A stretch of DNA of 64,000 nt from Pseudomonadota bacterium (lineage in GTDB: Bacteria > Pseudomonadota > Gammaproteobacteria > JAKAQQ01), in assembly GCA_027365475.1 (NCBI GenBank), contig DAHXNI010000091.1, positions 1 to 64,000 on the forward strand, in the 5' to 3' direction. Within the stretch, counting starts at the first letter, position 1; every line of letters begins with the position of its first letter. Of the stretch, positions 286 through 63,113 are shown one piece after another. Position numbers and translations under genes: made by a program. The notes under the pieces were generated by a model. The model did no database searches. It was not told the DNA's origin and saw only the letters and a list, made by a program, of their open reading frames with translations.

Positions 286-1974
286 GCTTCAATGAGGCCG
301 CGGCGATTCGCCGCGGATAATACCGAAGCCGGACCGGGCACGTACATGCTGCATGTGCTTCAATGAGGCCGCGGCGATTCGCCGCGGATAATCGTTCGGG
401 GTCAATCAATATTCGCCGTTCAATCCGGTGCTTCAATGAGGCCGCGGCGATTCGCCGCGGATAATTTCGTCCAACAGGTGCAGGCACTCGGGGCCACGGT
501 GCTTCAATGAGGCCGCGGCGATTCGCCGCGGATAATATCTGCGGTGTGAGCAGGCAGTGCGTCAGCGTGTGGCTTCAATGAGGCCGCGGCGATTCGCCGC
601 GGATAATGGTTATACTGCTTTTATCAACCTTTGGAGATGGAGATGCTTCAATGAGGCCGCGGCGATTCGCCGCGGATAATGGGTACAGTTGTCGGTACCA
701 GTGTTCCGGCAGCCCAGGCTTCAATGAGGCCGCGGCGATTCGCCGCGGATAATGTGACTGCTCTGGACTCAGTGGCAACTGTTCTAATCTGCTTCAATGA
801 GGCCGCGGCGATTCGCCGCGGATAATCATTTGCCAGCGGTCCTTGTGCATATATCACGCTTGCTTCAATGAGGCCGCGGCGATTCGCCGCGGATAATGTA
901 TCACCAGAGGAGAAAGAGGCCTTCCATCTCACGCTTCAATGAGGCCGCGGCGATTCGCCGCGGATAATATTTTCCTATAATGTCAGAAATTGAAACGCCC
1001 AATAGCTTCAATGAGGCCGCGGCGATTCGCCGCGGATAATGAATCATGGTCCCTGTCAAGATGTCGGGCGAACAAGCTTCAATGAGGCCGCGGCGATTCG
1101 CCGCGGATAATATTGCCCGTAGCAGTGACCGTTGCGGTATTGGTTGGCTTCAATGAGGCCGCGGCGATTCGCCGCGGATAATTCCGCGGGCGCCCGCGCC
1201 GCTATCGTGGCGTGAGTTTGCTTCAATGAGGCCGCGGCGATTCGCCGCGGATAATGGATTGATAATCGAAAACAGTTTATTGATTATTCAGCTTCAATGA
1301 GGCCGCGGCGATTCGCCGCGGATAATATCCCACCACCAGCGTAGAATCGCTGGGGATGCCGCTTCAATGAGGCCGCGGCGATTCGCCGCGGATAATCGAG
1401 CGGTGCAGCTTTGGCGAGTGGTGCAGCTTCGGGCTTCAATGAGGCCGCGGCGATTCGCCGCGGATAATGGCCGTCACACCGACGGGGACGTCACCCCGAT
1501 CGATTGCTTCAATGAGGCCGCGGCGATTCGCCGCGGATAATATGCCATCGGTCGAGTCCTCGCGTATTACTTCCCTGGCTTCAATGAGGCCGCGGCGATT
1601 CGCCGCGGATAATAGCCGCAGCGCACGATGATCCCATCCTCCGTGTTGAAGCTTCAATGAGGCCGCGGCGATTCGCCGCGGATAATGTGTTTTAATAGCG
1701 TCCATAATCATTCGTCTTCCCGCTTCAATGAGGCCGCGGCGATTCGCCGCGGATAATCGATGAAGTGTTAGGCGATACAGGAATGCCTGATGCCGCTTCA
1801 ATGAGGCCGCGGCGATTCGCCGCGGATAATTGCTGGGCCGCATCGTATGCCGCATTTTTCATATTGCTTCAATGAGGCCGCGGCGATTCGCCGCGGATAA
1901 TCTTGCAATTTTCTAAAAAGGGGTTATACTACTATTATGCTTCAATGAGGCCGCGGCGATTCGCCGCGGATAAT
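286..1974 (-). CRISPR. CRISPR array, 24 identical 36-bp repeats, 23 spacers
   Basis: A 36-bp unit begins GCTTCAATGAGG and ends CGCCGCGGATAAT on the plus strand. It occurs 24 times with no mismatch that I can find, at start-to-start distances of 70-73 bp, giving 34-37 bp spacers. The repeat core is a perfect 8-bp stem (CCGCGGCG / CGCCGCGG) with a 3-nt loop. On the minus strand the repeat ends in ATTGAAGC, resembling the ATTGAAA(C/G) 8-nt 5' handle of many crRNAs. The predicted promoter, cas genes and adaptation module all lie on the 1974 side. The array is therefore read leftward, the newest spacer is next to position 1939, and the oldest is near 322. No degenerate terminal repeat is seen. Confidence 0.98.
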
Positions 1975-2176: not shown

Positions 2177-2473
2177 TCACACGATGGTCGGCTCCCGTGC
2201 CACAGGATCAAAATTCTTGCCCAAGCTTACCACTTTTGGCCTGACCGTGTCGGCCAGCCCCAGGTCCAGAAAAATCACATGATCTGACTTGTGATGAATC
2301 ATAACATCCAGCATGGCCACCAGTTCGGCATGCCGTTTCCGGGACAGCCGGCATTGGAATATCGAGAACTGCAACCATTCGCCATAACCTTTCATCAGCT
2401 TGAACACCCGTCGCAAGCGTTTGGCGTCGGATATGTCGTAGGCAACGATGTAGAGATGTTCGTCGGTAGTCAT
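2177..2473 (-). CDS. cas2: CRISPR-associated endoribonuclease-fold protein Cas2
   Basis: This 98-aa protein is the usual Cas2 length. It starts with the beta-strand YIVAYDISDAKRLRRV, whose aspartate is the conserved ferredoxin-fold Cas2 residue, followed by the family segment GYGEWLQFSIFQCRLS. Cas2 dimers bridge two Cas1 dimers in the spacer-integration complex. The start codon overlaps the stop of cas4-cas1 (ATGA), so the two are translationally coupled. The gene is last before the leader and array, the arrangement expected for a type I-G adaptation module. Confidence 0.96.
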   Translation of the reverse strand: MTTDEHLYIVAYDISDAKRLRRVFKLMKGYGEWLQFSIFQCRLSRKRHAELVAMLDVMIHHKSDHVIFLDLGLADTVRPKVVSLGKNFDPVAREPTIV

Positions 2474-4182
2474 CGGGTGGTAAACACCGGGTATTCCAGA
2501 ATATCGCCAAGCAGGTTGCGGCCCAGCAAACGCGCCTGTAATTCCAGCAGGCGCCGGTAACTGATCCGGTAACCGAACACCGGATGAGTCACTTCCTGGC
2601 TCATGCGCCGCTCGAATGTTCCAATGAAACGCTTGCGTCCTTCCGGAGCCATGTTCACGCTGCCAGCGGCGCTGATAAAATCGCTTGGCCGCACTTCACC
2701 ATTGTTGATCGCCGTGAGCACACTCGAATCCGCAATCAATGGCCTGAACGGCTCCATCATGTCCAGCGATAACGCCGGTCGCCCGTATCGCGACTGATGA
2801 TAAAAACCGCGGTACGGATCAAACCCCACGGCGGTTAACGTGGTATTCCAGGCACGCACCAGCAGCGCATATGCAAACGACAGCAGTGCATTGACAGGGT
2901 CCGCCGGTGGACGCCGATTGCGTGCGCCGAAATCAAACGCCAATGCTTTTTCATCCGTATCCCGCTTCAGCATGGAGACAAACTGACTGAAATACATGGC
3001 CGCCGCCGCACCTTCAACTCCCAGCAGTTCCGGCAGACTGGAAACTCTCGCGGTCTGATTTGCAAACCGGCGCAGAGCTTGCAATGCGTTATCGGGTTCT
3101 GTATCAGCACGCCAGTTGCGGCGCAGCAAGGTACGGCAGTTGAGAATCTTCGCCCGCACGATACTTTTGGCAAACCGAAGACAGATTTGCTCATCGAAAC
3201 TGCCGCGATATTGCGCGGTGCGCAATTCAACATTCTTGTGTCCGACGCCCACCGAATGCCCGAGAAACCAGCCACCGTAGGAATGCCAGGAGATGGGTAT
3301 CTCGCGGCGCATGAGTTCGTGCAGGGTGGGTGTGGTCACATACACATTGCCTATCAACACAAGCTGGGAAAGCTCGACGAGGCGCACATGATTTACCGGC
3401 TTGTCCTCCACGGAAATTTCCAGCACTTCGCCTTTCTTGGATACCTTGGCCTGATTGGCCTGCACATAAGCAGGCAACGCTTCGGCTTGTCCCACCGCCA
3501 GAGGACGCGGTTCATTCACACCCCGGCGCAGGAAATTCACTTCATCCGGTAGGCAAATACCGACCAGCGAACAACGCGGACACTTAGGGCTATCTTCCAA
3601 AGGAGGCGGTGTTTGCCCGCCCGCTGCGATCAGGCGCAGCCCGTTGACGGCTGAAAGCGTTTGAGCGCGGAGTTCATCATCGAACAAAACCAGCACCCGC
3701 TCTTTCGACTCGACGAAATACAGGACACCTTCTGTGCAGGTGTAACCGTGTTCTTCGAGAATCAGACCCTGCACGCAAAGCTGTACCCGCTCGGGATCGT
3801 AAGCGCCATGAGCGGTATGTGGCCGTTTGCCGCGTTTGTAGTCCACCGGTATCACTTGCCCCGCGTCCGCTTCGACCAGATCCATTTTTGCAATGAGCCC
3901 CAACCGATTGGAAGACAGGGTAATGGACCGTGCATGCAGTGTTTCCCCTTCCTCAAGCTCTTCAGGCGAAGGCATGGCACCGCCCGGCTGGTCCACTCGT
4001 CGGTGACCGAAGCGGCCTTCTACCGTATCAGCGGAATCCGACCACTCCCCCTGCACCCATTCGAGATAGGCGAGACGCGGGCAATACTGGTATTCATTGA
4101 CCATCCGGGCTGGCAGCAGCGGCATGTCTGCGGCCAACTCCGGAAACGGGAGGGGAAGTTCCGCCTGAATTTCCACGGCCAT
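2470..4182 (-). CDS. cas4-cas1: Cas4-Cas1 fusion (spacer acquisition nuclease/integrase)
   Basis: This is a single polypeptide of about 570 aa. The N-terminal 220 residues are Cas4: a first cysteine in YQYCPRLAYLEWV, the RecB-nuclease motif VDYKRG, and a C-terminal cysteine cluster CPRCSLVGIC for an iron-sulphur centre. The remainder is Cas1. The catalytic glutamate is in LGVEGAAAAMYF, the histidine in GFYHQSRYG and the aspartate region in LSLDMMEPFRPL, so both halves look active. Cas4-Cas1 fusions are typical of subtype I-G (formerly I-U), where Cas4 trims and orients prespacers. I chose the ATG preceded by a G-rich stretch; a TTG four codons upstream is possible. Confidence 0.95.
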   Translation of the reverse strand: MAVEIQAELPLPFPELAADMPLLPARMVNEYQYCPRLAYLEWVQGEWSDSADTVEGRFGHRRVDQPGGAMPSPEELEEGETLHARSITLSSNRLGLIAKMDLVEADAGQVIPVDYKRGKRPHTAHGAYDPERVQLCVQGLILEEHGYTCTEGVLYFVESKERVLVLFDDELRAQTLSAVNGLRLIAAGGQTPPPLEDSPKCPRCSLVGICLPDEVNFLRRGVNEPRPLAVGQAEALPAYVQANQAKVSKKGEVLEISVEDKPVNHVRLVELSQLVLIGNVYVTTPTLHELMRREIPISWHSYGGWFLGHSVGVGHKNVELRTAQYRGSFDEQICLRFAKSIVRAKILNCRTLLRRNWRADTEPDNALQALRRFANQTARVSSLPELLGVEGAAAAMYFSQFVSMLKRDTDEKALAFDFGARNRRPPADPVNALLSFAYALLVRAWNTTLTAVGFDPYRGFYHQSRYGRPALSLDMMEPFRPLIADSSVLTAINNGEVRPSDFISAAGSVNMAPEGRKRFIGTFERRMSQEVTHPVFGYRISYRRLLELQARLLGRNLLGDILEYPVFTTR

Positions 4183-4263
4183 GTACACCCCCAAGCCTTC
4201 GAGGCAAGCCCAAGATTAAGGAAACTATAGTCAATATTCAGTAATCAGGAATGCCGGGGCCGC

Positions 4264-4668
4264 TCAGCGCTTGCGCCAATTCTCCACGGGCAAGCCGCTG
4301 ACGCGACGAAACTCCCGCTCGTTGGATGTGACGAGCACAAGCCCGCGTGCCAGTGCGCACCCCGCGATCAACGCATCATAAGCGCCGATCGGGCGACCCC
4401 GCTTTTGCAACGAAGCGCGCAAAGTCGCCGTCGCGCGGGCATCTTCCGGACCATAAGGCAATATCGAGACCGCCTGGAACAAGGCATGCATGACAGGAGC
4501 CAGCTTGCGCGCCCTGGTGGGATTGAGCACGAGACCAAACTCGATTTCCATCAGGCTGACGCTCGACACGCCGATGAAGGCAGGGGACATTGTTTTGACG
4601 TGCGTCAGGGTATGAGCATTGCCGCGCGCAAAGTCGCTCAACACGCAAGTATCGAGCAGGTACTTCAA
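4264..4668 (-). CDS. vapC: PIN-domain ribonuclease toxin, VapC type
   Basis: This 134-aa protein has PIN-domain features: LLDTCVLSDF with the first acidic residue near the N-terminus, SLMEIEFG, and the later acidic segment GAYDALIAGCAL followed by TSNEREFRRV. VapC toxins are magnesium-dependent RNases that attack tRNA or rRNA when free of antitoxin. The start overlaps the stop of the antitoxin gene by 4 nt. The pair sits inside the cas locus, between the truncated csb2 copy and cas4-cas1, in the same orientation. Confidence 0.88.
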   Translation of the reverse strand: MKYLLDTCVLSDFARGNAHTLTHVKTMSPAFIGVSSVSLMEIEFGLVLNPTRARKLAPVMHALFQAVSILPYGPEDARATATLRASLQKRGRPIGAYDALIAGCALARGLVLVTSNEREFRRVSGLPVENWRKR

Positions 4669-4901
4669 GCGAATGGATCCACGTGAGGAGCCTTAAGCCC
4701 GCGTCGCGTATCTTCAAAAGGGGGCATATCGGAGATACCATTAAAATCAAGCACGACATTCGGCCAATCGCCCCTGATGTCCTGGTCCAGCAGGCGGGCA
4801 AGCGCCTCGCGGATGAGCGCATTCCGCGACACGCGCCGCGCCTTCGCCAGCCGTTCCAGACGCGCTGTCGCCTGCTTGTCAATGTACACGTTAAAGTTCA
4901 T
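4665..4901 (-). CDS. vapB: ribbon-helix-helix antitoxin, VapB/CopG type
   Basis: This is a 78-aa protein. Its N-terminal half (MNFNVYIDKQATARLERLAK, then RVSRNALIREALARLL) is a ribbon-helix-helix DNA-binding fold. The C-terminal tail is rich in acidic and aromatic residues, as expected for wrapping the toxin. The ATG chosen follows a GGAGAA ribosome-binding site at 8 nt; a longer frame upstream lacks one. A perfect palindrome lies 23 bp upstream, consistent with autoregulation. Confidence 0.85.
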   Translation of the reverse strand: MNFNVYIDKQATARLERLAKARRVSRNALIREALARLLDQDIRGDWPNVVLDFNGISDMPPFEDTRRGLKAPHVDPFA

Positions 4902-4924
4902 GGCCGGTTTTCTCCATATAACTG

Positions 4925-4943
4925 CTTGATATGTTATATCAAG
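4925..4943 (-). promoter_or_regulatory. vapBC operator palindrome and promoter
   Basis: CTTGATAT-GTT-ATATCAAG is a perfect 8-bp inverted repeat with a 3-bp centre. On the minus strand it contains a TTGATA -35 box, with TATATG placed 16 bp further on as a -10 box. The arrangement is that of an antitoxin-repressed promoter in which RHH dimers would block RNA polymerase. Confidence 0.7.
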
Positions 4944-5687
4944 AAAATGCCTTTCCGCGCAAACCATCCGCGCCACCCCTCACTCCACGGGTTTAAACAA
5001 GCCCAAACCGAAGTGGCAGGCAAAGCCGAGTGCGATGGGGCCTGAAACGGGTTCAGGGAAAGTCAGGCGCCAGAAACTGCCGAGGCGGTCGGGCTGGGTC
5101 ATTCCACGGCGACTACGGAAGCGTCGGAAATGAATTGGACGACGTTTCCGATTCTTGCCTACGTTCACTTCGTCTAACGGCTCAAGGATAATCGGTTCGG
5201 GCAAACCGCGTTCGCGGCATTCGCGACGTAGCTGGTCCTCAATATTGAAATGCTTCTTGATGTGCCAAGGATGGAGATACGGGGTAACTGATTCCCAAGC
5301 CTTACTTTCCTTAGTCAGGGTGCTTCCAATCCCGAGATGGCCGATATTCTCCAGCGCCAGCCGCCATTCACCACCATCGCGGCTCCAAAGTTTTTTGACC
5401 CGCTCTAATATCCTCTGCTGTTCGGCATTCATGCCGTCGGGGACATGCAACAGCAGATGATCAATGCAACCGTCGCCGTTGGCATCCCAAGGAAGACAAA
5501 AAGCGTGGCCATGACGGTTGCCATCGGGCATATCGTGGCCGGAAAAGACGGCTGGAATGTTGCCTTCTCCGAAAACACGTTTGGCCCGACTCATCACCGC
5601 CACGCGCGGCAGGGGCTTGCCGAGGAGAACGAAACTGGTGGTAGTCGCAGTGGGTCTGTCGGCCTTGTGGATGACGCGCCGAGGTTC

Positions 5688-6897
5688 TAGTGTAGTGTCC
5701 AGCAAATAGATTTACATATAATCTGGAAATGACTTATGATAGGGGATGTCCCGCAGCCATGCGCCTTTCGTCATACCGGAGCTTCAGCGTGAGCCGTTGG
5801 AGCGGTGGGTGGCGGCTCACGGAACGCCGCAGCAGGTGGCGCTTCGGTGCCGCATTGTGCTCGGTGCGGCCAGCGGCCAGACCGATGTCATGCTGGCCGA
5901 TGCGCTGGGCGTGAGCCGGCCAACGGTCGCCCTGTGGCGTGGCCGCTTTTTGGAAGCCGGGCCGGAGGGCTTGTGGGAGATCGCCCCCGGCCGCGGTCGC
6001 AAGCCCACCTATTCGTCTCGCAAGATCAAGGCGATCGTCCAGGCCACCACATCGAGCAAGCCGCAAGGGATGACCCAGTGGAGTTGCCGGACAATGGCGC
6101 ACCTTCAGGGCGTGAGCAAGTCCACCGTCAGCACGATTTGGCGCAGCCACAATCTGAAGCCGCACCGGGTCAAGACCTTCAAGCTGTCGCGCGATGCCCA
6201 GTTCCTGGAGAAGCTCACGGATGTCGTTGGGCTGTATCTGAACCCGCCTGATCAGGCGCTGGTGCTCTGTGTGGACGAGAAGACCCAGATCCAGGCGCTG
6301 GACCGCACCCAGCCCGGCTTGCCGATGAAGAAAGGCCGGCTGGGTACGATGACCCATGACTACAAGCGCAACGGCACGACCTGCTTGTTTGCCGCTCTGG
6401 AAGTGCTGCAGGGCAAGGTCGTGGGCCAATGCTTCAGCCGGCATCGTCACCAGGAGTTCCTGAAATTCCTGCGGTGCATTGATGCGGCGTTTCCCGGAGA
6501 CATTCCCCTGCACCTGGTGATGGACCACTACGGCACGCACAAGCATCCGAATGTGCAGGCCTGGCTGAGGCGCCACCCGAGATTCATCCCGCACTTTGTC
6601 CCCACCAGCGCCAGCTGGCTCAATCGGGTCGAGCGCTGGTTTGGCGAACTCACTTCCAAAGCGGTACGTCGCGGTGCTTTCAGCAGCGTCGCCGACCTGC
6701 AGATCGCCATCGCCCAATTTCTCGAGGCCTGGAACAAAGACCCCAAGCCGTTCGTCTGGACTGCTACCCTCGAGTCCATTCAAGCCAAGCTCGCCCAGTG
6801 CCGCCAGACGCTCGAACAGATCAAACCCGGCTGCACTGCACCGCGGACCCGACGCACAAAGAAACAAATGTAAAGCTAATTCTTGGACATCACAGTA
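5688..6897 (+). mobile_element. IS630-family insertion sequence, apparently complete
   Basis: Ends are imperfect 30-bp inverted repeats: 5688-5717 begins TAGTGTAGTGTCCA, and the complement of 6868-6897 begins TACTGTGATGTCCA. Both repeats finish in TTTACAT. The flanking TA is duplicated, the standard IS630 target. The single transposase gene fills the element. It is inserted into the truncated csb2 copy. Confidence 0.9.
5746..6873 (+). CDS. IS630-family transposase
   Basis: This 375-aa protein has an N-terminal helix-turn-helix (ADALGVSRPTVALWRGRF), a second DNA-binding region with GVSKSTVSTIWRSH, and a DDE catalytic domain. The catalytic domain has VLCVDEKTQIQAL (first D), LVMDHYGTHKHP (second D) and SASWLNRVERWFGELT (final E). 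Length and motif order match intact family members, so the gene is probably functional. It is antiparallel to the surrounding cas genes and would interrupt read-through from cmr6 towards vapBC and cas4-cas1. Confidence 0.95.
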   Translation: MSRSHAPFVIPELQREPLERWVAAHGTPQQVALRCRIVLGAASGQTDVMLADALGVSRPTVALWRGRFLEAGPEGLWEIAPGRGRKPTYSSRKIKAIVQATTSSKPQGMTQWSCRTMAHLQGVSKSTVSTIWRSHNLKPHRVKTFKLSRDAQFLEKLTDVVGLYLNPPDQALVLCVDEKTQIQALDRTQPGLPMKKGRLGTMTHDYKRNGTTCLFAALEVLQGKVVGQCFSRHRHQEFLKFLRCIDAAFPGDIPLHLVMDHYGTHKHPNVQAWLRRHPRFIPHFVPTSASWLNRVERWFGELTSKAVRRGAFSSVADLQIAIAQFLEAWNKDPKPFVWTATLESIQAKLAQCRQTLEQIKPGCTAPRTRRTKKQM

Positions 6898-6974
6898 GCG
6901 CATCGACCGGGCGCATGTACCGCCCATCAGACCCGACACCAATGGATGGCGTCCCGGCTGGCACGACCCAAACG

Positions 6975-8132
6975 TCATGGATTGGAGTCGCGGCGGAGGA
7001 GCCTGTTGACCCGGCGCGCGATCTCTTGCTGTCGCGGCTTAAACGCAGGCTTCTGCTTTTTGCCTTGTGTCTTATCCGGGTTTTCCAGCAGGCCGGGGAA
7101 GTGTTTCCGCACCAGGGACTGGAATCGTTCCATCGCATCCGGTTCCGGGTTCTGTTCCAGCTTGTCGAGCCAGTCTTCGCTGAAGAGCCATGCGCTGAAC
7201 GCATTCTTGTCGGCTTCCAGATCGCACTTGGCGATGGTGTGCTCCAGTTCCCGCGCCATGGGGCTCAGGCCTTGCATACGTTTCGCCCGTGCCGCGTGTT
7301 CCTGTTTTTCTCGTTCTTCTTGTGCTTGTGCGGCGGCAGCCAGATCTGCTTGCTCATCTGCCCTTGTGAAGCGGCCGTAGCCCACGGATGTTTTGGCGCC
7401 GGCACCCAACCAGATCAGTGCTTCGCACAGCCATGCGGTCGCTGTTTCACAGTCCTTGATGTCGCCAGCGTCGTTTGCGCGCCGGGGTATCAGCATGAAG
7501 GTGAAGGTTTGTCCCTTGTCCACGGCGAGGAAGGGAATCGGGGTGGGATCGTGCCAGTCGGCGGGTGGCGTGGCGGCGCTTTTGTCCTGATAGTACAGTC
7601 CGTAGTGCGGGGTCATGACTTCGGCCGCCAGTTGGACGGACGCGGTGGGCAGTGCATCGCCGACGATCACGCTGCCCACACTGGCGTTGTTCTGGTTGGC
7701 GGGGCCGAAGATACGCTTGATGTCGCCTTTCTCCACGCCCTGCTCGCGCGCCCAAGCGCGCACTATGCCCTTGACCGAGGAGCCGGGCAGATAGGGCACA
7801 CCCAGCGTGTGATGCCAGGCGAAACCGTTTTCGATGGGGTGTTCGCGCCCCAGGCCGGTCACGAAACGGCCGTCGGTTTTGAAGCGCAGCAGGCGGCCGG
7901 CGCACGCAGCCGTCATTCGCCGCAAACGCTGGTACTGTTCTTCCAGTTGTCTTGGATCACCTACTTTTACTTTGCTATTGGAAAATTCGCCAATCCATTG
8001 GGATTTCCCATCACGTGAAACTTCCTTGAACCCTGCATCCCAATGATGAAAGAACTTGTCGTACCAAAGCCCGGCGTTGTAATCGCCCGTCGGCTTTTCG
8101 GTATGCAGGCTTTTCGGCAGAGGCAGATTCAT
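6975..8132 (-). CDS. cmr6: type III-B RAMP protein Cmr6
   Basis: This Cas7-like RAMP protein forms the head end of the Cmr backbone, next to Cmr1. The family signature is in the middle: the GLGREHPIENG segment, then PYLPGSSVKGIVRAWARE, whose glycine-rich loop contacts RNA, and a C-terminal KTSVGYGRF. At 385 aa it is longer than the usual 250-330. The extra length is a charged C-terminal region after about residue 255, with predicted helix content and a lysine/arginine-rich end. It is the last gene of the effector operon; the start overlaps the cmr5 stop by 4 nt. Confidence 0.93.
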   Translation of the reverse strand: MNLPLPKSLHTEKPTGDYNAGLWYDKFFHHWDAGFKEVSRDGKSQWIGEFSNSKVKVGDPRQLEEQYQRLRRMTAACAGRLLRFKTDGRFVTGLGREHPIENGFAWHHTLGVPYLPGSSVKGIVRAWAREQGVEKGDIKRIFGPANQNNASVGSVIVGDALPTASVQLAAEVMTPHYGLYYQDKSAATPPADWHDPTPIPFLAVDKGQTFTFMLIPRRANDAGDIKDCETATAWLCEALIWLGAGAKTSVGYGRFTRADEQADLAAAAQAQEEREKQEHAARAKRMQGLSPMARELEHTIAKCDLEADKNAFSAWLFSEDWLDKLEQNPEPDAMERFQSLVRKHFPGLLENPDKTQGKKQKPAFKPRQQEIARRVNRLLRRDSNP

Positions 8133-8542
8133 CGCGCGTCCCTCCCTTCCGGTATCTTAAGGAAGGCCACGGCAAATTTCTTCAGCCAGACGAGATAGGC
8201 CAGTGCCTCGGCATGAGCGTGCAGGTAGGCCTGCTCGCTGCCTTCGGTAATCGCACGGATCAGATTCTGATTGCCGGCATAGGGGGCATTCAGATGATCG
8301 CCACACAGCCAAGCTTGCATCTGTTCGTAAAGCTTGTTATGGGGTTCGTCCGGTTCTCCTTTTGCCGCGGATAGCAGCATGGCCAGCGCCTGGCCCAGGC
8401 CGTTTTGCAGGATGGTGGCCGGCAGGGCGCTGACATAGCTGACGTAATGTCCGGTGTCCTTGTCCCTAAGCGCATCCACGGCGTGCAGGGCGTGTTCGGC
8501 GCGCTGCTGGTCGAGGGATTTCTTGAGTTCCTCCGTGCTCAT
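8129..8542 (-). CDS. cmr5: type III-B small subunit Cmr5
   Basis: This 137-aa all-helical protein has the typical Cmr5 opening (LDQQRAEHALHAVDAL) and the segment YVSYVSALPATILQNGLGQALAMLL, a hallmark of the family. Cmr5 forms the minor filament (Cas11 role) between Cas10 and the head and stabilises bound target RNA. Start and stop both overlap neighbouring genes by 4 nt. Confidence 0.94.
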   Translation of the reverse strand: MSTEELKKSLDQQRAEHALHAVDALRDKDTGHYVSYVSALPATILQNGLGQALAMLLSAAKGEPDEPHNKLYEQMQAWLCGDHLNAPYAGNQNLIRAITEGSEQAYLHAHAEALAYLVWLKKFAVAFLKIPEGRDAR

Positions 8543-9342
8543 GACCGCGCCTCCGGAAAGGCCAGTGCCAGCCAGCCCTGGCCAACCGTTTCGTTACCGC
8601 CGACTTGCAGGTAAGGCGATTGCCGGAGCGCAGTGGCCAGCGACTCCAGCGCACCAGATACGCGTTCGCTGATCAGCGTGTAAAGCAGACCGTCGGGCGG
8701 CAGGCTTTCCTCGTACCAGAGGTTCTTGCTGGTCTTGGTGTCATCATCAAGCACATTGCGGGCCTGAACGGCCAATCCGTAGCGGGCAAACCAGACAAAG
8801 TCGTCGTCATGCAACACCAGCAATGATCTAACGAGGCGCGCGCGCGTAGCATCATGGACAATCAGCTTGCGTAACACAGTTATGACTGTATCAGGCACTT
8901 TGCCATTGAGTTGAAAGCTACGCTCTTCCAGAATGACGGGGGCTTCGCCTTCGCCCAGCGCTTGGCCGTGCCCGATAACGGTGTCGAGCGCTGGCGTTTT
9001 AATACCGATACGCTCCGCATCGCGCCGGTAACGTTCCCACAAATGCGGGCAGGTGATCCAGCGGCTGGCGCCTTGCAGGCTGCGCACGGGCAAGGTCAGC
9101 AGGCGGGCGTCGGAAAACAGCAACTGCCCGACGTTGTCCTGCTGACCGAACAAGGTATTGGTATCCGCCATACCTTTCTGCTTGGCCCAGTCACGCAGAG
9201 CGCCTTTCAGGCCCGAGCCGGGGATGAAGGGATAATCGGTCACGGCTTCGCGTGCCACCGGCAAATCCACTACCCCTTCACTCTGGCCGCCGCCAACGTG
9301 GATGAAGGTTTCCGCCAGCAGGCCGATGAGTAATGTGTTCAT
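8539..9342 (-). CDS. cmr4: type III-B backbone RNase Cmr4 (Cas7)
   Basis: This 267-aa RAMP protein repeats along crRNA to form the Cmr backbone and cuts target RNA every six bases. The catalytic aspartate is present at residue 26 in EGVVDLPVAREA, followed by the family loop DYPFIPGSGLKGALRD and C-terminal GGNETVGQGW. RNA cleavage is therefore expected. I set the start at the ATG that overlaps the cmr3 stop (ATGA); a longer upstream frame is inside cmr3. Confidence 0.95.
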   Translation of the reverse strand: MNTLLIGLLAETFIHVGGGQSEGVVDLPVAREAVTDYPFIPGSGLKGALRDWAKQKGMADTNTLFGQQDNVGQLLFSDARLLTLPVRSLQGASRWITCPHLWERYRRDAERIGIKTPALDTVIGHGQALGEGEAPVILEERSFQLNGKVPDTVITVLRKLIVHDATRARLVRSLLVLHDDDFVWFARYGLAVQARNVLDDDTKTSKNLWYEESLPPDGLLYTLISERVSGALESLATALRQSPYLQVGGNETVGQGWLALAFPEARS

Positions 9343-10445
9343 TGATTCCCCCAGGTTCCAATGGCTATCCATCCATAGCCCCAGGTGGGGCGCAATCCGA
9401 TACAGGTGCCATGCAAGGCACGGATGACGTGTTCTTCTTCAACGCCGGCCTGCATAAACAAAACGCTTCCCGGTGCCAGGTGTGGTTGAAGCGGGAGCGG
9501 TTGCTTCTTGACCGAATCCCAGCCGCCCAGCATCAGCACACGGGGCAGGCAGGCGCTGACCAGCGTGCCCGGCAGTCCGGGAATGGCCTGCCCCGGCGCG
9601 GGCGCCGACGCCAGCGGCAAGGGCGTCAGAACAACAACGGTGTAGTTCAGGTTTTTCCCATCGCGCTGCAAAGTGGCGGGTGAGGCAGGCAAGTCGGGGG
9701 CTGCATCCGCCACCGTGATCCAGGCGCTGCGCGCTTCACCGCCAACTGGATGCGGTTTGCGAGGGATGCGGGCGAGGGTTTCCTCGTCCAGTCCTTCCAG
9801 CCAGATGCCCAGGGTCACGCCGTGGTGCAGCCGGATGTGTTGCGGTGAATACAGGGCACCTTCTCCCGTGGTGCGGGTGGCTTCATCGCGTGCGATGCCG
9901 ACTCGGGCTTCGAGGGACCAGAGGCTTTTCTGTTCAACTATCGTATCTGCCGCGGGCTCTTTGCCTTTGAGTGCCGTGGACAACCCATCGAGGCTCAGCC
10001 AGATCAACCCCGCCTGTTTCCAGCCGTCTCCCGGCGCGCCGGAAGGCAAGGCAGGAAGCCGGACGGCCTTGTCCAGATCGCAGTCGCGCGCAGGGCCGGG
10101 CACAAGCAGGGTCGTCTTGCCGGCTTCGTTCCGCATCAGGTTCGCGGGTGCGAGGTAAAGCGGTTTCACGTGCTGCAGCAGCAGCGGACCGCGAAACCGG
10201 AGCGCCCCAAGGTTCTCGCCGTCGCCCAATTTCTGTTTGATGTCATCGCCCCACGATCCCCTGCCATTCCAGCCGAGGCCGCGCGCTACCGCGGCGCGGA
10301 CGGCGCCCACCAGCGTGGCCGGCGCGGGCGGGAACTGACTGGCGACGCCCACCTGCTCACATTCATCTTTGGTGTAAGGCCGTCCGTCGCGGAAGAAAAC
10401 CGTATCCAGCGGCTCGATATTCAACAGTCGACTGTGGCCGTTCAT
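9339..10445 (-). CDS. cmr3: type III-B Cmr3 (Cas5-like, binds crRNA 5' handle)
   Basis: The 368-aa protein has the Cmr3 N-terminus (IEPLDTVFFRDGRPYT, then FPPAPATLVGAVRAA) and a C-terminal WDSVKKQPLPLQPHLAPGSV region followed by the glycine-rich PTWGYGWIAIG. Cmr3 pairs with Cas10 and caps the 5' handle of crRNA. Here that handle would come from the single neighbouring array. The gene overlaps cmr2 and cmr4 by 4 nt each. Confidence 0.94.
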   Translation of the reverse strand: MNGHSRLLNIEPLDTVFFRDGRPYTKDECEQVGVASQFPPAPATLVGAVRAAVARGLGWNGRGSWGDDIKQKLGDGENLGALRFRGPLLLQHVKPLYLAPANLMRNEAGKTTLLVPGPARDCDLDKAVRLPALPSGAPGDGWKQAGLIWLSLDGLSTALKGKEPAADTIVEQKSLWSLEARVGIARDEATRTTGEGALYSPQHIRLHHGVTLGIWLEGLDEETLARIPRKPHPVGGEARSAWITVADAAPDLPASPATLQRDGKNLNYTVVVLTPLPLASAPAPGQAIPGLPGTLVSACLPRVLMLGGWDSVKKQPLPLQPHLAPGSVLFMQAGVEEEHVIRALHGTCIGLRPTWGYGWIAIGTWGNQ

Positions 10446-12313
10446 TCGTGGACCTCCTTGCCCGCCAGCAGGCGCGCGAGGCGCAGCCCATCCAGTTGCA
10501 GGGCTTTCTGTGAGCCGGCCTTGCCATCCTTGTCGCGCTCAAAACCCTGGCAGGCGGAAAACAATTCAGCGATCGCCTCTTCCGCTTGTTCAAGCGTCGG
10601 TTTGCGTTCGCGACTCTTCAGATATTCTGCCTGCAACAGACGCTTTACGTTTGGGAAGTTCTCCAGCTCTCCTGCGTCGGCCAGCATGGGATAACGGGTT
10701 CTCAGCTTGTAGAAGAATCCGCTGCCGAAGCGGTCCGCGCTCACGGCATCGGCGAGTGACTGCAAGCGCTTCGTGAATTCTTCGCCGTTGTCATCGGCCC
10801 AGGTGCTCACCCATTCCGCCGCCTTGCCGGAAGCCTTGAACCAGGCCAAGGCAATGGAATCGCGCCCGTTCCCGTCCTTGGCCACGCCGTCCAGTTGCCG
10901 GCGCGCCTCGGCCAGCACTTCGCGCAAAGGCAGGTGGTAATGGGCGAAGACGACGGCCACCGACGCCGTAAAATCCGGGTCGTTGAACGCTGTTCCGTAA
11001 GCTTCATGCAGGCTCATGGCGCAATCGAGGGCACGGTCATAGGGCAACAGCGCCATGACGTCATCGCCGCCAGCATAGAGCGTGACGCCGTCGTGCGCTT
11101 CAACACAGCCGGCAACGTTGCGACTGAAGCGGGCCAGCGCACATGAAATGGCATCCGGTTTGCCCGTACTCAGATGCTTGCCCAGGTTGTCGCCATCAAG
11201 CAACAGCAGCGCGTAATAAGGTTGGACGGGATGCTCTTTCTGCAGTTTCTTCAGCTCTGTGCACAGCGATTGCCGCGCCTCTTCATTCTCTGTCAGCGGC
11301 GTGTCGCTGGCATTGGCCAGCGCCGCGGGCAGGAAGAAATTGCCGTCCAGCCAGGCCAGTCTTTTCAGGGATTCCAGGCTCTTGATGTGCATGCTGCGCT
11401 CGCCTCGCACGGCTTCCCCGGCGGCCTCGATAACGTGTTCTTCGTATGCCCGCAGTTTCTCTGTCCGCTCCAGATCGCCGGCAAAGCCGCGCAACCACGG
11501 GATGGCCGCCATGTAGGCCGTAGAGGGCCAGTTGCGGACAGCCTTGGATATTCCATCCGGCACCCAGCGAATCGATTGTTTCGGGTCTTCCGGTTCGAGT
11601 TTCGGGAACAACCGCTTGATCAAAGCAATCGCGCAAAGCCGTTCGTTCTCGCGCAGTTCCAGACGCCCGACTCGGCTCCCGAGCGCGTTCCAGAAATCAT
11701 CCTGATTGCTTTTTTCGTGCGCACGGACAAAGCCCGACAGCTCCTGCCAGTCGCCCATCAGGGTGCAGTGATCGCCCCCTTCCGGTTCGGGCCAGCGGTT
11801 GCGCCAGTTCTTGCGGGCATCCAGCCAGCGGGCGTCGCTGCAGTCGCCAGGATCGGCGCCGAGCACCCAGGATATTTCCCAGAAGCCGTTGACCTGCCGG
11901 TCCCAAATCGCACGCGTTTCATTGCCCCGCGCTTGGCTACGATCCACGAATTGTTCCCAGACGGCATCGGCCAGCTTTCGCCAGGCGTCCCGCATGGCCG
12001 TCTCGACCCGGTGTGCATCAAAGGAGTCAGGCACCGTTGCCTTGAAACGATTGGGCAGCGAGCCGATCTGCGGGGTAGGATCATGCGCTAACGGCTTGCC
12101 TTCGATAGCGGCTATAAGCGGATCCGTAATGGTGTCCCCATCGGCAACGACCGGAAAGACGACGCGACCGCCCTGCCTCCGCACCTCGGCCATGGCCTGC
12201 CCTGCCAGCCAAGACAGCAGAAACGATCCCGCCCACAAGTCGCGCGTGCGCCGCGCCTGAGCGACGAAGCCCTGCACCGGGCCGAGCGTGAAATGGAACA
12301 GTTGGGAGTTCAT
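10442..12313 (-). CDS. cmr2: Cas10/Cmr2, cyclase subunit without an HD domain
   Basis: The protein is about 623 aa. It starts directly with the Cmr2 N-terminal motif FTLGPVQGFVAQARRTRDLW. The polymerase/cyclase palm motif is intact in LYAGGDDVMALLP (GGDD). This predicts cyclic oligoadenylate synthesis from ATP when target RNA is bound. I see no N-terminal HD nuclease domain and no H-D metal motif, so ssDNA cutting is not expected. The start is the ATG overlapping the cmr1 stop. A CARF-bearing protein encoded two genes upstream would be the natural receiver of the signal. Confidence 0.95.
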   Translation of the reverse strand: MNSQLFHFTLGPVQGFVAQARRTRDLWAGSFLLSWLAGQAMAEVRRQGGRVVFPVVADGDTITDPLIAAIEGKPLAHDPTPQIGSLPNRFKATVPDSFDAHRVETAMRDAWRKLADAVWEQFVDRSQARGNETRAIWDRQVNGFWEISWVLGADPGDCSDARWLDARKNWRNRWPEPEGGDHCTLMGDWQELSGFVRAHEKSNQDDFWNALGSRVGRLELRENERLCAIALIKRLFPKLEPEDPKQSIRWVPDGISKAVRNWPSTAYMAAIPWLRGFAGDLERTEKLRAYEEHVIEAAGEAVRGERSMHIKSLESLKRLAWLDGNFFLPAALANASDTPLTENEEARQSLCTELKKLQKEHPVQPYYALLLLDGDNLGKHLSTGKPDAISCALARFSRNVAGCVEAHDGVTLYAGGDDVMALLPYDRALDCAMSLHEAYGTAFNDPDFTASVAVVFAHYHLPLREVLAEARRQLDGVAKDGNGRDSIALAWFKASGKAAEWVSTWADDNGEEFTKRLQSLADAVSADRFGSGFFYKLRTRYPMLADAGELENFPNVKRLLQAEYLKSRERKPTLEQAEEAIAELFSACQGFERDKDGKAGSQKALQLDGLRLARLLAGKEVHE

Positions 12314-13251
12314 GTCCGTGCTCCCGCATCGACGAAGGTCCGTGCGATCCGCCATGTTCCGGACGGTTCATACTGACCCGACAGGAACTTCCCGGGTAGA
12401 AACAGCGCCAGCGGTATGGCCTGCGCTCCTTCGGGCTGGTGTACATGCAGGAATACTGCCCCCGCGCGACGTTTCCTCGCATTTCCACCCGCATTTTTTC
12501 GCGGAAGACCGAAACCTTCTCTTTGACCTTTATCCGACAAATTGCGGATAGCCTTCCGATAGTTTTCGGCCAACCAGCAGTGCGCCTTCTCACTGTTTTC
12601 GCATGGTTTACCAATCAGACAACCACTTTGTTTAGTGAAAGCCGTCCAGTCTTTCAGGCCGCAGCCGGAAACCAATAGGCCATCGGTAGCTTTCTTCAAA
12701 GATGGCTCGTCTGTTGGCGCGCGCCATGGCTCGCCGTTACCGGTTAATGTTTCCAACGTCAGGCTGCCCCATCCGTTGCGTGTGCGGCTCCCCAGTCCGC
12801 CGAAAAGGCCCAGCACTATCAGCATCTGGCACAGGCTATCCCGTTGCTTGGCATCACAGCCTGGGCAGGACAGTTGTACCGTGAACCATCCGCCCGGCTG
12901 GATGTACACGCGTTCGGTTTGCCCAGGTTTGTCGATCAGTCCATAGCCGACGTAACTCTGCCAACTGTTGCGGTTGAACTTCTGCTGGTTTTTGGTATGG
13001 AACCGTGATTCGGCCAGCCGCATCCGCACGTGGCTGACGCCTGTGCGGGTGCTGCCGAACAGCCTGTCTTCCTCGTTGCGTAATGCCTGCACGCTGTCAA
13101 ACTGTTGCGCGGCCATTGCACGCCACCAGAAGCGCAGCGCGCCCTTGAAGCTCGGCAGACGAAACTCGGCCTGGTTCGGGTCCGCACCGCTCAGGAACAT
13201 GGGTGTGACGACACGGTATTTCGCCGTGAAGGTATGCACGGGTTCAGTCAT
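12310..13251 (-). CDS. cmr1: type III-B RAMP protein Cmr1
   Basis: The 313-aa protein opens with TFTAKYRVVTPMFLSGADP and the loop FRLPSFKGALRFWWRAM, both diagnostic of Cmr1, the subunit closing the 3' end of the crRNA. GLFGGLGSRTRNGWGSL is the second glycine-rich loop. The chosen start, MTEPVHTF, follows an AAGG site and overlaps the preceding stop by 8 nt. Two ATGs slightly upstream lie inside the CARF gene. Confidence 0.93.
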   Translation of the reverse strand: MTEPVHTFTAKYRVVTPMFLSGADPNQAEFRLPSFKGALRFWWRAMAAQQFDSVQALRNEEDRLFGSTRTGVSHVRMRLAESRFHTKNQQKFNRNSWQSYVGYGLIDKPGQTERVYIQPGGWFTVQLSCPGCDAKQRDSLCQMLIVLGLFGGLGSRTRNGWGSLTLETLTGNGEPWRAPTDEPSLKKATDGLLVSGCGLKDWTAFTKQSGCLIGKPCENSEKAHCWLAENYRKAIRNLSDKGQREGFGLPRKNAGGNARKRRAGAVFLHVHQPEGAQAIPLALFLPGKFLSGQYEPSGTWRIARTFVDAGART

Positions 13252-14983
13252 TGCCTTCATCTCCATTGAATTCCTTGTCCAGCCAGAACAACTCAGATTC
13301 GACCCAAGGATTTACTTTTTGCTCCTCTTGCGTTCTTCTGTCCGCGAGTATGAAGCGCCGGCATAGTCGTTGATCATTGCGTGCTTGCTCAAATAACTGC
13401 TGCACAACCACTCCCATCAGAGTAGTACCTCCGGTCAAGTTGACCAGCACTTCATCTGCATCCAGACAATTTTTCCTTGTCTGTTGCAAAAGCGCCTTTA
13501 TTTCACTCGCACCATTGAATGGATCTTTCATGCCGAGAACGTTAGGGGTGCCTGAAAACCCAGTCCGCTGCAACGCTTCATTGATGCCCGGCTTGGCCTG
13601 CTCCGAACACAGCACCAGTACCGAGTTCGGCCGCGTTTGCTTGATAGCTGAATATAATACGCCCGGGCTCATGCCGACAGGGGTGATCAACAGGCGCCCC
13701 TTGCTGCCGCCGAACGACTCCCAAGCGTCATCTGCACCTTTGATCCTGTACCAGAACGACTGTATCTGCTCAGACAGGTTGGACTCCGGTTTCGCCACGT
13801 CTTGCTTCATACCGTGGTGGGCAAGCTGATTACGTTCCTTTCCGAGCTGATCCCAGAATGTGCCCCAGCTTTTCTGCTCATCCGACAAGCTGTCACGCAA
13901 TGCGGGCTGATTCATGGCGCCCAGTTCGCGCTCGATCTTCATGCGCGTGGGTCTATCCAGCCAGTGCTTCGGAGGGTCGCGATGCAGTACCCCCAGGGAC
14001 ACCACCCATTCGCGCATCAATCCAACTCCGGCCGAAAACTGGCCGCGGTCAAGGTACTGGTCTATCAATTTCGCCTGACGCCGGAGCTCCTCCCGGCTTA
14101 GCGGGTACAGCTTTTTCCATGCACTCTTGCTTTTGCCATTCTTCAAGTCATCGCTTTCAAAGCGCAGCGGTGCCGCGGCTTCCAGTACCGCTTCACCCAG
14201 CTCTTTGGCCAAGGGCACGTTCAGACTGGGCATGGTGTCCAGAGGACGATCTTCCAATGCGTGACTCAACTTGCCCGCCGCCAGCCCCAGTTCCAATGGA
14301 AAACCGGATTCGTAGTGGTACGAGAAGGTGCCCAGTGCTTCCGCACAGGCTTGCGACGGGCCACGTGAGGAATCTTTCGGCAAACTGTTTTTTACGTCTT
14401 CGAACCGGGCGGCCAGCGCCTTGGTAAACCCGGTCTCTCGAAACACTCGGACCGCATGGAACCATTGGGGAAGATCCAGCAAGGGCTTCAGATCAATAAG
14501 CGGCTTTGTATCTCCCTGGCTTTCGTATTTTCCATACCAGGCATCGACGATCTCGACGTTGCGGAAACTGGACAGGTAAAGCGCCAGTGCATAGAAAACA
14601 AACGGGATATGCCTCGGGCCATGCGTGATATCCAGCGTCAATCTGGATGCCGGGGCAATGTTGTTCGCTACGTTGCGGATGGTCGCGGAAAGTTGTTCGC
14701 TATTATCCCCATCAGGAATGTCCAATCCTTCAGCCCTGACACCCAACGATTCGACCTGACGCGCAAAATCTTCCCAAACCGTTTCGCGCGCTTTTTTTGT
14801 CAACAGGCACAACACCTTGTCTGGCCGGTCATTGGGATCCTGCAATCGCAACCACGCTAATGGCGCATGCTCGGATTGCGTAGTTTTGTCGCCGAGCGCA
14901 TAGGTGGTCCGTTTAGGCTGCGTTCCCAGTGCCATCAGCAACAGATGCGGCCGCGAATTGTTTTCCGTCGATATCATGCTCAT
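13244..14983 (-). CDS. candidate CARF-HEPN-CARF ancillary nuclease (Csx2/TM1812-like N-terminus)
   Basis: The protein has 579 aa. Residues 1-180 match the DxTHG/TM1812 (Csx2) type CARF fold: LLLMALGTQPKRTTYAL at the first strand and DITHGPRHIPF at 118-128. Residues 200-425 are mostly helical and end in KERNQLAHHG, an R-x4-H HEPN RNase motif (R384, H389). Residues 430-550 look like a second Rossmann-type CARF domain: LLITPVGMSPGVLYSAI, VLVLCSEQ, then LVNLTGGTTLMG. CARF domains bind cyclic oligoadenylate and HEPN domains cut RNA when activated. Two CARF-like domains on one chain are unusual. The gene overlaps csb2 (ATGA) and cmr1 (8 nt), so it is co-expressed with both effector types. Domain boundaries are read by eye. 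Confidence 0.82.
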   Translation of the reverse strand: MSMISTENNSRPHLLLMALGTQPKRTTYALGDKTTQSEHAPLAWLRLQDPNDRPDKVLCLLTKKARETVWEDFARQVESLGVRAEGLDIPDGDNSEQLSATIRNVANNIAPASRLTLDITHGPRHIPFVFYALALYLSSFRNVEIVDAWYGKYESQGDTKPLIDLKPLLDLPQWFHAVRVFRETGFTKALAARFEDVKNSLPKDSSRGPSQACAEALGTFSYHYESGFPLELGLAAGKLSHALEDRPLDTMPSLNVPLAKELGEAVLEAAAPLRFESDDLKNGKSKSAWKKLYPLSREELRRQAKLIDQYLDRGQFSAGVGLMREWVVSLGVLHRDPPKHWLDRPTRMKIERELGAMNQPALRDSLSDEQKSWGTFWDQLGKERNQLAHHGMKQDVAKPESNLSEQIQSFWYRIKGADDAWESFGGSKGRLLITPVGMSPGVLYSAIKQTRPNSVLVLCSEQAKPGINEALQRTGFSGTPNVLGMKDPFNGASEIKALLQQTRKNCLDADEVLVNLTGGTTLMGVVVQQLFEQARNDQRLCRRFILADRRTQEEQKVNPWVESELFWLDKEFNGDEGND

Positions 14984-16473
14984 TTGTCCTGTTCCATCGG
15001 CTTGAACAGGCCAAGCCCGAAATGGCAGGCAAAGCCGAGCGCCAGCGGGCCTTGCGCGGGCTCGGCAAAGGACAGGCGCCAGAAGCTGCCCAGGTGGTCG
15101 GGCTGGTCGAGTCCGCGGCGGCGGCGGAAGCGGTGGAAGTGGATCGGACGGCGTTTTCGGTCTCTGCCGACATCCACTTCGTCGAAGCTTTCCATGACGA
15201 CCGGCTCGGGCAGCCCGCGTTCACGGCATTCCCGGCGAATTTGATCCGCAACGGTGAGGCGCTTCTTGACGTGCCACGGATGTAGGTACGGCGTCACGGA
15301 TTCCCAGACGACGTTTTTTTGCATCAAATCTCCGCCCGCCTCGATGCCACCGAGACTTTCCAGCGCCAGCCGCCATTCGGCGCCGTCGCGGCCCCAGATG
15401 CGGTCGAGCCTTTTCAGCACACGCTGCTGCTGCGCGTCCATGCCGCCGGGCACGTGCAGCAATATCCGGTCGAGTCGGCCATCGCCGTTGCTGTCGTGGG
15501 GCAGGTAGAAAGCGTGGCGGTGGCGATTGCCTTTCGGCATGTCGTGGCCAGAAAAAACAGAAGGGATCTTGTCTTCACCGAACAAGCGCTTGGCCTGGCC
15601 CATGACGGCCACACGCATCAGTTCGCCGATGCGCAACGTTTCCTCCACGCGGGGTAAAGGTTTGCCGACCAAAATGAAGCTGGCCATAGTTGCGTCTGGC
15701 ACCTTGTATTTGGAGATGGCGTAGCGCGGGCGCAGCGCATCAACAGGACGCAGGTAATTTACTTTTCGCGCTGCTGGCGGCTGGTTCCAGCCTTGCTTGC
15801 GCAGATCGGCCGTATCCACGCTAAGTGCATCGAGCAGCTTGTCCGGTAACGTCTTGCCCAGCTTCTTGGCAGCTTTCTTGTCGGATAGAAAGCTTTGCCG
15901 GAGGGTGCTGTATTCTGCGGCTGGAAGCGGAGCGTAGAGTGTCACGACTTCGCCGTAGATTTCGCCGGTTGTCGTATCGACTGTCTCCATACCGGGTTTA
16001 CAGTTGGCTTTGGCGCCCTCGGCGATGCGGTGTGCTTCCACCCAGGACTCGGCGCGGCCCAAATAACCCATGACGGTCAGAAGATCGTCCAGCAACGCAC
16101 GCTGCTCTTCGGGAAGATCTAGAGTGGGCCATACGACCATCAAAGGATCATTCGGATGAACGGCTGTGAAGGCATCGAGAACAAGCGATGTCTTGCCGGC
16201 GGCGAACTGCGGCATGTAGTGACGGGTGTGACTGTGACTGGCCGCGGGCAGTGTGTACTCAGGCAACTCCTGAGCCAGCGATTCAATCAAACCAAGCAGC
16301 GTGGATTCGTTATGCTTTCCAGTGTACTTGATCTTGTGATGCCAAGTGGCGATCAAACTACGCAAGATGCGCCACGGCTCGGGTGGCCAAGCCACGGCAC
16401 CTTCGTTGACGTGCCTGCCCCACGGTGTGGCGTGATAACGCCCTGCTGGGAAGGTGAAGGAGAGAGCAAGCAT
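14980..16473 (-). CDS. csb2: type I-G Cas5-Cas6 fusion (Csb2, GSU0054 family)
   Basis: This intact 497-aa protein has an N-terminus (SFTFPAGRYHATPWGRHVNEGAVAWPPEPWRILRSLIATW) typical of the Cas5-like half of Csb2. The C-terminal half contains FSGHDMPKGNRHRHAFYLP and ends with [10 protein letters not shown], the Cas6-like, crRNA-processing half. It is the only likely processing enzyme in the window and so may supply crRNA to both the I-G and Cmr complexes. It starts three bases after the csb1 stop. Two other partial copies of its 3' end lie in the window. Confidence 0.93.
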   Translation of the reverse strand: MLALSFTFPAGRYHATPWGRHVNEGAVAWPPEPWRILRSLIATWHHKIKYTGKHNESTLLGLIESLAQELPEYTLPAASHSHTRHYMPQFAAGKTSLVLDAFTAVHPNDPLMVVWPTLDLPEEQRALLDDLLTVMGYLGRAESWVEAHRIAEGAKANCKPGMETVDTTTGEIYGEVVTLYAPLPAAEYSTLRQSFLSDKKAAKKLGKTLPDKLLDALSVDTADLRKQGWNQPPAARKVNYLRPVDALRPRYAISKYKVPDATMASFILVGKPLPRVEETLRIGELMRVAVMGQAKRLFGEDKIPSVFSGHDMPKGNRHRHAFYLPHDSNGDGRLDRILLHVPGGMDAQQQRVLKRLDRIWGRDGAEWRLALESLGGIEAGGDLMQKNVVWESVTPYLHPWHVKKRLTVADQIRRECRERGLPEPVVMESFDEVDVGRDRKRRPIHFHRFRRRRGLDQPDHLGSFWRLSFAEPAQGPLALGFACHFGLGLFKPMEQDK

Positions 16474-16476
16474 GGC

Positions 16477-22456
<5,980 letters not shown>

Positions 22457-22697
22457 ATGAACAGAATCATTACCCAGCGGGAGCTTCGCAACGAATCCGC
22501 GGCGGTGCTCCGGGAAGTCCAAGCGGGGCAGACGCTCATCGTGACCCGCAACGGGACGCCGGTTGCTGAGCTTCGACCGATTCAGCCACGCCGGTTCGTG
22601 CCGCGCGCAGCAATCGCCGAGGCCGCCGCGCGCGCGCCCCGGATTGATGTCGGCCGGTTCCGTGCCGATCTGGACGCCGTAAGCGATCAGTCCGTCA

Positions 22698-22705
<8 letters not shown>
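22457..22705 (+). CDS. Phd/YefM-type antitoxin
   Basis: This 82-aa protein has the N-terminal NRIITQRELRNESAAVLREVQAGQTLIVTRNGTPVAEL segment that defines Phd/YefM/VapB DNA-binding antitoxins. The C-terminal tail binds and inhibits the toxin. The last 8 bases overlap the start of the following PIN toxin gene. The start is the ATG giving the canonical N-terminus; longer in-frame starts give extra unrelated residues. Confidence 0.9.
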
Positions 22706-23227
<522 letters not shown>

Positions 23228-23404
23228 TATCTGCGTGCAACGCACAGGTAGGCCGGAAGCTTCATGCAGATCCGGCTGGTTCAAGCCGCGTTTGCCGCGA
23301 ACCGACAGCGGATGATTGCCACGAGTTTCGGGAACGGGAACAATTGCTGTTGGATGTCGGTCATGGGATGGCGCGTCTGTCCAGGCCGCATTGCCAAATA
23401 ATTG

Positions 23405-62849: not shown

Positions 62850-63113
62850 ATGAAGAAGCGTTTTTCCGAAGAGCAGATCATTGGCTTCCTGCGCGAGGCG
62901 GAAGCGGGCATACCGGTCAAGGAGCTGTGCCGCCGGCACGGTTTTAGCGAGGCGTCGTACTACCTGTGGCGCAGCAAGTTCGGAGGCATGAGCGTGCCCG
63001 ACGCCAAGCGCCTGAAGGTGCTGGAGACCGAGAACGCCCGGCTGAAGAAACTCCTGGCCGAACAGGTCCTCGAGAACGAGGTGATCAAGGATGCCCTGCG
63101 AAAAAAATGGTGA
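62850..63113 (+). CDS. IS3-family transposase OrfA
   Basis: The 87-aa protein has a helix-turn-helix (EEQIIGFLREAEAGIPVKELCRRHGFSEASYYLWRSKF) and a leucine-zipper-like tail. AAGGAG precedes the ATG by 7 nt. It ends in an A-rich run (GCGAAAAAAATGG) overlapping orfB, where a -1 frameshift would produce the OrfAB transposase. Confidence 0.93.
   Translation: MKKRFSEEQIIGFLREAEAGIPVKELCRRHGFSEASYYLWRSKFGGMSVPDAKRLKVLETENARLKKLLAEQVLENEVIKDALRKKW

Follow-up and report, generated by a model that had tools for sequence, protein, structure and literature searches.

The locus described here raises the question of why a type I-G CRISPR-Cas system with an intact csb2 also carries the 3' half of a second csb2, placed on the other side of a type III-B Cmr module and next to the adaptation genes. 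In the window (the whole stretch of 64,000 nt that was analysed), the relevant features are:

286..1974, strand not assigned: CRISPR array, 24 copies of the 36-nt I-G repeat
2177..4194, minus strand: cas2 and the cas4-cas1 fusion (adaptation module), by homology to adaptation genes in other loci
4264..4976, minus strand: vapBC (PIN toxin, RHH antitoxin; Pfam PIN and RHH_1), directly downstream of the partial csb2
4980..5689, minus strand: partial csb2, the Cas6 domain half (about residues 246-494 of the intact protein), an open frame (tblastn, TIGR02165)
5690..6895, plus strand: IS630-family element at a TA inside the partial csb2 (NF033545, inverted repeats, TA)
6898..6924, minus strand: most upstream surviving piece of the partial csb2 (RYMRPVDA...), from the empty-site translation compared with NYLRPVDAL of the intact gene
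6925..6974, minus strand: junction of about 50 bp of unassigned sequence between the cmr6 stop and the csb2 homology, the splice point (alignment)
6975..13266, minus strand: cmr6-cmr5-cmr4-cmr3-cmr2(cas10)-cmr1 (NCBIfam TIGR01898, TIGR02577, TIGR01894)
13244..14983, minus strand: CARF-domain protein (TIGR02221, TIGR02549, TIGR02710, CARF_Card1)
14980..16473, minus strand: intact csb2, encoding a Cas5-Cas6 fusion whose G-loop contains H484 (TIGR02165, 207 bits over 1-493)
16477..22035, minus strand: csb1 (cas7g), csx17 (cas8g1) and cas3 of the present effector operon (TIGR02570, TIGR04113, TIGR02621)
22421..23099, plus strand: phd-vapC pair (PIN) beside the third csb2 tail
23129..23299, minus strand: third csb2 copy, a decayed 3' tail with an internal stop

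The effector genes belong to the csx17/Cas8g1 branch of type I-G, with scores over the curated cut-offs for TIGR04113 (622 bits), TIGR02570 (126), TIGR02165 (207) and TIGR02621 (812), and they are adjoined by the cas4-cas1 fusion, cas2 and an array with a 36-nt hairpin repeat. The type III-B module comprises Cas10/Cmr2 and Cmr RAMP proteins (TIGR02577, 157 bits; TIGR01898, 139; TIGR01894, 55), cmr3-5 being named from their position and from relatives in locus L045. In a tightly packed operon, the CARF gene overlaps the csb2 stop by 4 nt, and this junction therefore looks native, and the overlap of starts and stops from csb2 through to cmr6 suggests that the csb2-CARF-cmr block is an old unit. 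No clear step in GC content was found at the csb2/cmr6 junction. The CARF protein (13244-14983) matched TIGR02221/DxTHG in its N-terminal part and both TIGR02710 and CARF_Card1 in its C-terminal part, and possibly combines two CARF domains. Near the right end of the contig, translations indicated a tyrosine-recombinase-like gene (61660-62703) and an IS3-type integrase-core gene (62966-63931).

The partial csb2 aligned with residues 246-494 of the intact Csb2 at 63 % amino acid identity over 249 aa (tblastn, E 4e-106), which rules out chance similarity; amino acid identity was 67 % in the genome search, nucleotide identity was 69 %, and TIGR02165 matched with 94.5 bits over model positions 268-492. 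The original prediction had csb2 homology running from directly after the cmr6 stop throughout 4980-6974. The C-terminal copy is real, but because 5690-6895 is an IS630 element the csb2 sequence consists of 4980-5689 and about 27 nt at 6898-6924, and with the flanks joined across the element its homology starts about 50 nt past the cmr6 stop. The element (1,206 bp) encodes a transposase at 5746-6873 (NF033545, 255 bits), possesses terminal inverted repeats (5680-5717/6868-6905) and is flanked by TA at both ends, thus showing every feature expected of an IS630 member; a second copy elsewhere in the genome, located by a targeted search, was only partial (89 % over 381 bases). Joining the flanks at a single TA restored one uninterrupted csb2 frame (...GRYMRPVDAL/EPRRVIHK...) through to the stop. 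The element cuts the partial csb2 off from its upstream context. At the other end, vapB starts 4 nt past the csb2 stop, and the predicted position beside vapBC and cas4-1 was thereby confirmed.

The partial copy has suffered an in-frame loss of 12 residues (about 276-287 of the intact Csb2) through a deletion near 5601-5606, which takes out the invariant E284 and the near-invariant G283 and R287. In AF2 models, helix 276-298 of the intact Csb2 was reduced to about five low-confidence residues, with pLDDT at the deletion region below 50 in the partial protein compared with over 90 in the intact protein; the Cas6 fold of the partial copy is thus incomplete, 12 residues of its first helix having gone. 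A Foldseek search with the model of the intact Csb2 gave weak matches, Cas6 structures among them, and phmmer of the intact Csb2 against PDB chains gave no match. The Csb2-type Cas6 domain is still recognizable in the partial copy from its G-loop, which retains a catalytic-type His. This residue is the likely counterpart of Tsu H503, as no invariant His other than H484 occurs among the last 170 residues. All near-invariant columns were conserved, the deleted Glu excepted, and dN/dS was 0.07-0.12, as low as in full-length copies and with no excess of amino acid change, suggesting that the partial copy was either useful until recently or recently truncated.

In other genomes, csb2 was situated upstream of cas4-1 in 47 of 53 loci with enough sequence (the csb2 loci found plus G034; the six exceptions have 10 kb behind csb2). 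The gap between the two genes in these 47 loci was 0-7 kb (19 bp to about 7 kb, median about 0.94 kb), compared with 10.8 kb in the window. Among the exceptions, cas4-1 was upstream of cas3 in L029, L062 and L072, was 5'-truncated at the usual place in L065, and was not found in reach (10 kb behind csb2) in L045 and L066. The slot between csb2 and cas4-1 often carried toxin-antitoxin genes, TPR proteins or ERCC4 nucleases. A genome from another family (G048) possesses a relic, composed of a csb2 tail, vapBC and the 5' end of cas4/1 without an effector, that is 91.5 % identical to the window at the nucleotide level, its vapBC being about 96 % identical in amino acid sequence to that of the window. 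An original order of csb2, toxin-antitoxin genes, cas4/1 and cas2, as had been proposed, is supported by these findings.

Several further loci were observed in these searches. Besides the window, L045 has a Cmr block (11577-18135); its gene order is different, it includes a CARF gene with 35 % identity, and it occupies the same slot behind the csb2 of that I-G locus. Relics consisting of csb2 3' tails, some with cas4-1 fragments, were present at L074:5110-6263, L075:1172-4589 and L076:10003-10113, loci that belong to G048 and to genomes from the family and genus of the window. An intact version of the locus was not found in a close relative, the genomes of the same genus and family having csb2 relics or nothing. 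No csb2 relatives were found in the viral contigs searched, and the plasmids searched held no relatives of the window Csb2, although relatives of the other csb2 branch occurred on plasmids of Thermus, Rhodothermus, Methylomagnum and Azotobacter. These plasmid-borne I-G effector operons (L157, L158, L159 and L160) have the order csb1-csb2-cas3, with no cas4-1 in the stretches examined and with Tyr rather than His in the Csb2 G-loop where it was read.

Other loci were searched for comparable pieces with panels of each Cas protein after full-length genes had been masked. Second-copy C-terminal pieces of csb2 were identified in eight loci (L018, L019, L036, L056, L060, L063, L071 and the window). 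By the same search no stubs of csb1, csx17, cas4-1 or cas2 were found beyond contig-edge or frameshifted pieces, and the cas3 fragments were limited to a 5' stub (L019) and a distant piece (L039). In L019 the present operon is preceded by an old cas3 head and followed by a csb2 tail that belongs to another clade (82 % to L065); these two pieces are the ends of a replaced operon. The arrangement of L060 is repeated in G099 (L110), which has the same csb2 sequence and is therefore not independent. Seven of the 15 fragment starts fell within residues 237-258 (post hoc binomial 2e-6), a cluster that matches both the low-confidence linker at 252-257 in the AF2 model of the intact Csb2, whose first Cas6 strand begins at 261, and the published domain boundary R260 (PMC9638904).

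The window itself has a third piece, absent from the original prediction. This tail spans about 170 nt, contains a stop codon and is found beyond cas3 at 23.1-23.3 kb, adjoining the phd-vapC pair; its last 87 nt are 86 % identical to the partial copy, to which it is nearer than to the intact gene. The same phd-vapC pair is found directly behind csb2 in L013 and between csb2 and a csb2 tail in L056, in both cases within the slot between csb2 and cas4/1. This setting gives the third tail the look of an older remnant comparable to the partial copy.

In six loci (L018, L063, L071, L105, L106 and L108) an intact, stand-alone Cas6 half occurs beside another I-G effector. These halves are open genes of about 240-290 codons whose homology starts near residues 241-258. 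The half is located between the effector and cas4-1, or a fragment of cas4-1, in L018, L063, L105 and L106; cas4-1 is on the other side in L071, and there is no cas4-1 in the stretch read for L108. The partner effectors of four of these loci were typed and are of the Cas3-extension type (L071 and L105), the Cas8g2 type (L106) and a distant Cas8g1 type (L018). In the tree the halves were scattered among full-length csb2 sequences, and a single clade was rejected (AU p=0.0024), a result to be taken with some caution because L071 forms a long branch. This rules out one conserved orthologous stand-alone gene in the form of a single clade; the stand-alone halves in the six loci are independent events. 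The possibility raised beforehand, that the partial copy is conserved elsewhere as a separate gene, thus holds insofar as intact C-terminal half genes exist in six loci, but these arose independently and the window copy is damaged. Remains of a replaced effector at the junction are accordingly represented by the partial copy, the third tail, the L019 pair and the six stand-alone halves.

All of the halves retain the His in the motif LGxxxHxGLGLF, whereas the partner Csb2 lacks it in five of the six loci, with Ser in L018, Phe in L071 and L105, Tyr in L106 and Asn in L108 (which also has Tyr in its first Cas6 domain); only L063 has His. Of seven loci whose effector Csb2 carried the His in at least one Cas6 domain, six had an extra piece that was damaged or reduced to a tail, and in all five loci without the His the piece was intact (Fisher 0.015, post hoc, 12 loci). 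From these residue patterns, an association of intact halves with His-less effector Csb2 proteins is suggestive only. The argument is not general, because no stand-alone half was in reach of several effectors of the other branches in which Phe or Tyr replaces the His (L122, L123, L147, L154-L157, L159 and L160), and the proposal that a spare Cas6 accompanies each His-less effector was discarded, many of these effectors having none in reach. Repeat type was also ruled out as a reason for keeping the half, since the GGCCTCATTGAAGC end is common to the I-G repeats of nearly all branches, so that repeats do not discriminate. Eight loci, mostly from another class of the phylum, encode a Csb2 with a second in-frame Cas6-like domain (L124, L146, L148, L149, L150, L152, L108 and L109; frames of 728-811 aa). 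In those that were read, Tyr occupies the His position of the first domain, and the second domain has His (Asn in L108).

Taken together, these data are probably best explained by in situ exchange of the effector, in the course of which the Cas5-Cas6 fusion was severed and its Cas6 half remained beside the adaptation genes. An older csb2 would have been joined to vapBC-cas4/1-cas2 and the array, until another effector operon, comprising csb2-CARF-cmr1-6 at the least and possibly everything from cas3 to cmr6, replaced the older one. The break falls in the final strand of Cas5, immediately ahead of the Cas5/Cas6 linker, and the Cas6 half would have stayed with vapBC-cas4/1-cas2 and the array. 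Such a half may remain functional if an incoming effector has no active Cas6, since the isolated C-terminal Cas6 domain of Thioalkalivibrio sulfidiphilus Csb2 cleaves the repeat, although it does not build the effector complex (PMC9638904). In the window an intact Csb2 is encoded in the new operon, and the partial copy would therefore have become redundant; it would then have lost part of its first core helix, taken up IS630 at its start and presumably ceased to function. In line with this reading, the window effector genes were nearest to those of L011, L012, L014 and L017 and its cas4-1 was nearest to G048 and L023, with low support around the position of cas4-1 (55-77). Two observations speak against the reading: the partial copy has no excess of amino acid change, and the trees do not reject the partial and intact copies as sisters. 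The original prediction is supported in so far as the fragment would mark an exchange between related I-G loci. As a tentative extension, exchange may repeatedly split Cas5-Cas6 at the linker, with the freed Cas6 half feeding an incoming effector that lacks the His; the window copy would then be a Cas6 shared by the I-G and Cmr systems that has just been inactivated.

A different course of events, in which csb2-CARF-Cmr or CARF-Cmr entered a resident I-G locus by a crossover at csb2, leaving an intact and possibly hybrid csb2 on one side and the resident 3' half on the other, appears unlikely. There is room for entry of csb2-CARF-Cmr at csb2 because the copies differ in their nearest relatives: the partial csb2, csb1 and csx17 were nearest to the L011/L014 group, whereas the intact csb2 was equally near to L012, and its grouping with L011 and L014 alone was rejected (p 7.6e-5), though not when L013 was added. 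The independent Cmr block of L045 in the same slot also fits such an entry. Against it, both halves of the intact csb2 share their nearest relatives, with no chimera signal found, the csb2-CARF overlap looks native, the copies are only 69 % identical and the same tails occur without Cmr. For these reasons the narrower proposal, that CARF-Cmr alone was inserted by one crossover and so came to be flanked by the two csb2 copies, gained no specific support. The trees do not identify the resident csb2.

It is rather improbable that the partial copy is, or was until recently, a working stand-alone Cas6 for the array and the Cmr complex, with a new start near the IS630 end. An open frame of 241 aa does begin at a TTG in the end of the element, and the catalytic-type His, the conserved motifs, the low dN/dS, the intact counterparts in six loci and the published activity of the isolated domain would all agree with this, but 12 core-helix residues are gone together with the modelled helix, no ribosome-binding site was seen before the TTG and the operon already encodes an intact Csb2 capable of this role. 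It is very improbable that the resident csb2 was duplicated locally and then diverged over a long time. Placement of the two copies as sisters was not rejected (p 0.40), yet only a 3' half is present, synonymous sites are saturated (dS about 2.7), which rules out a recent tandem duplication, and csb2 sequences of other families are equally close.

Exchange of CRISPR effector modules in situ, around 'attractor' genes such as cas6 and cas1/cas2/cas4, is known (PMC6452270; PMC12669027). The loci studied here resemble these cases in that the adaptation genes, the array and a Cas6 stay fixed while the effector genes change. They differ in that Csb2 of type I-G joins Cas6 to Cas5 in one protein, and exchange therefore cuts near the linker and leaves a half gene or a tail. 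The T. sulfidiphilus Csb2 has two domains with the boundary at R260 and a linker near residue 260, and its locus likewise carries toxin-antitoxin and xpf-like genes between csb2 and cas4-1; its Csb2 is single and whole, and half copies are not described in the available text of that report (PMC9638904). Type III-B Cmr systems can use a Cas6 supplied in trans (PMC12669027); the window Cmr is likewise without its own cas6, here within an I-G locus, and the candidate providers would be the intact Csb2 and, formerly, the half. Splitting of the fused I-G Cas6 by exchange, its independent recurrence and the survival of the half as a separate gene were not described in the limited open-access literature searched, and the splitting of a fused Cas6 in this manner appears to be new.

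Separate C-terminal halves are given the name 'Csb2' by the family model, and genuine stand-alone I-G Cas6 genes may therefore be overlooked. The csb2 halves provide a physical record, at a domain boundary, of effector swapping in which the adaptation genes and the array stay in place, and they lead to a claim open to experiment, namely that effectors of foreign origin can make use of a Cas6 set free from its fusion.
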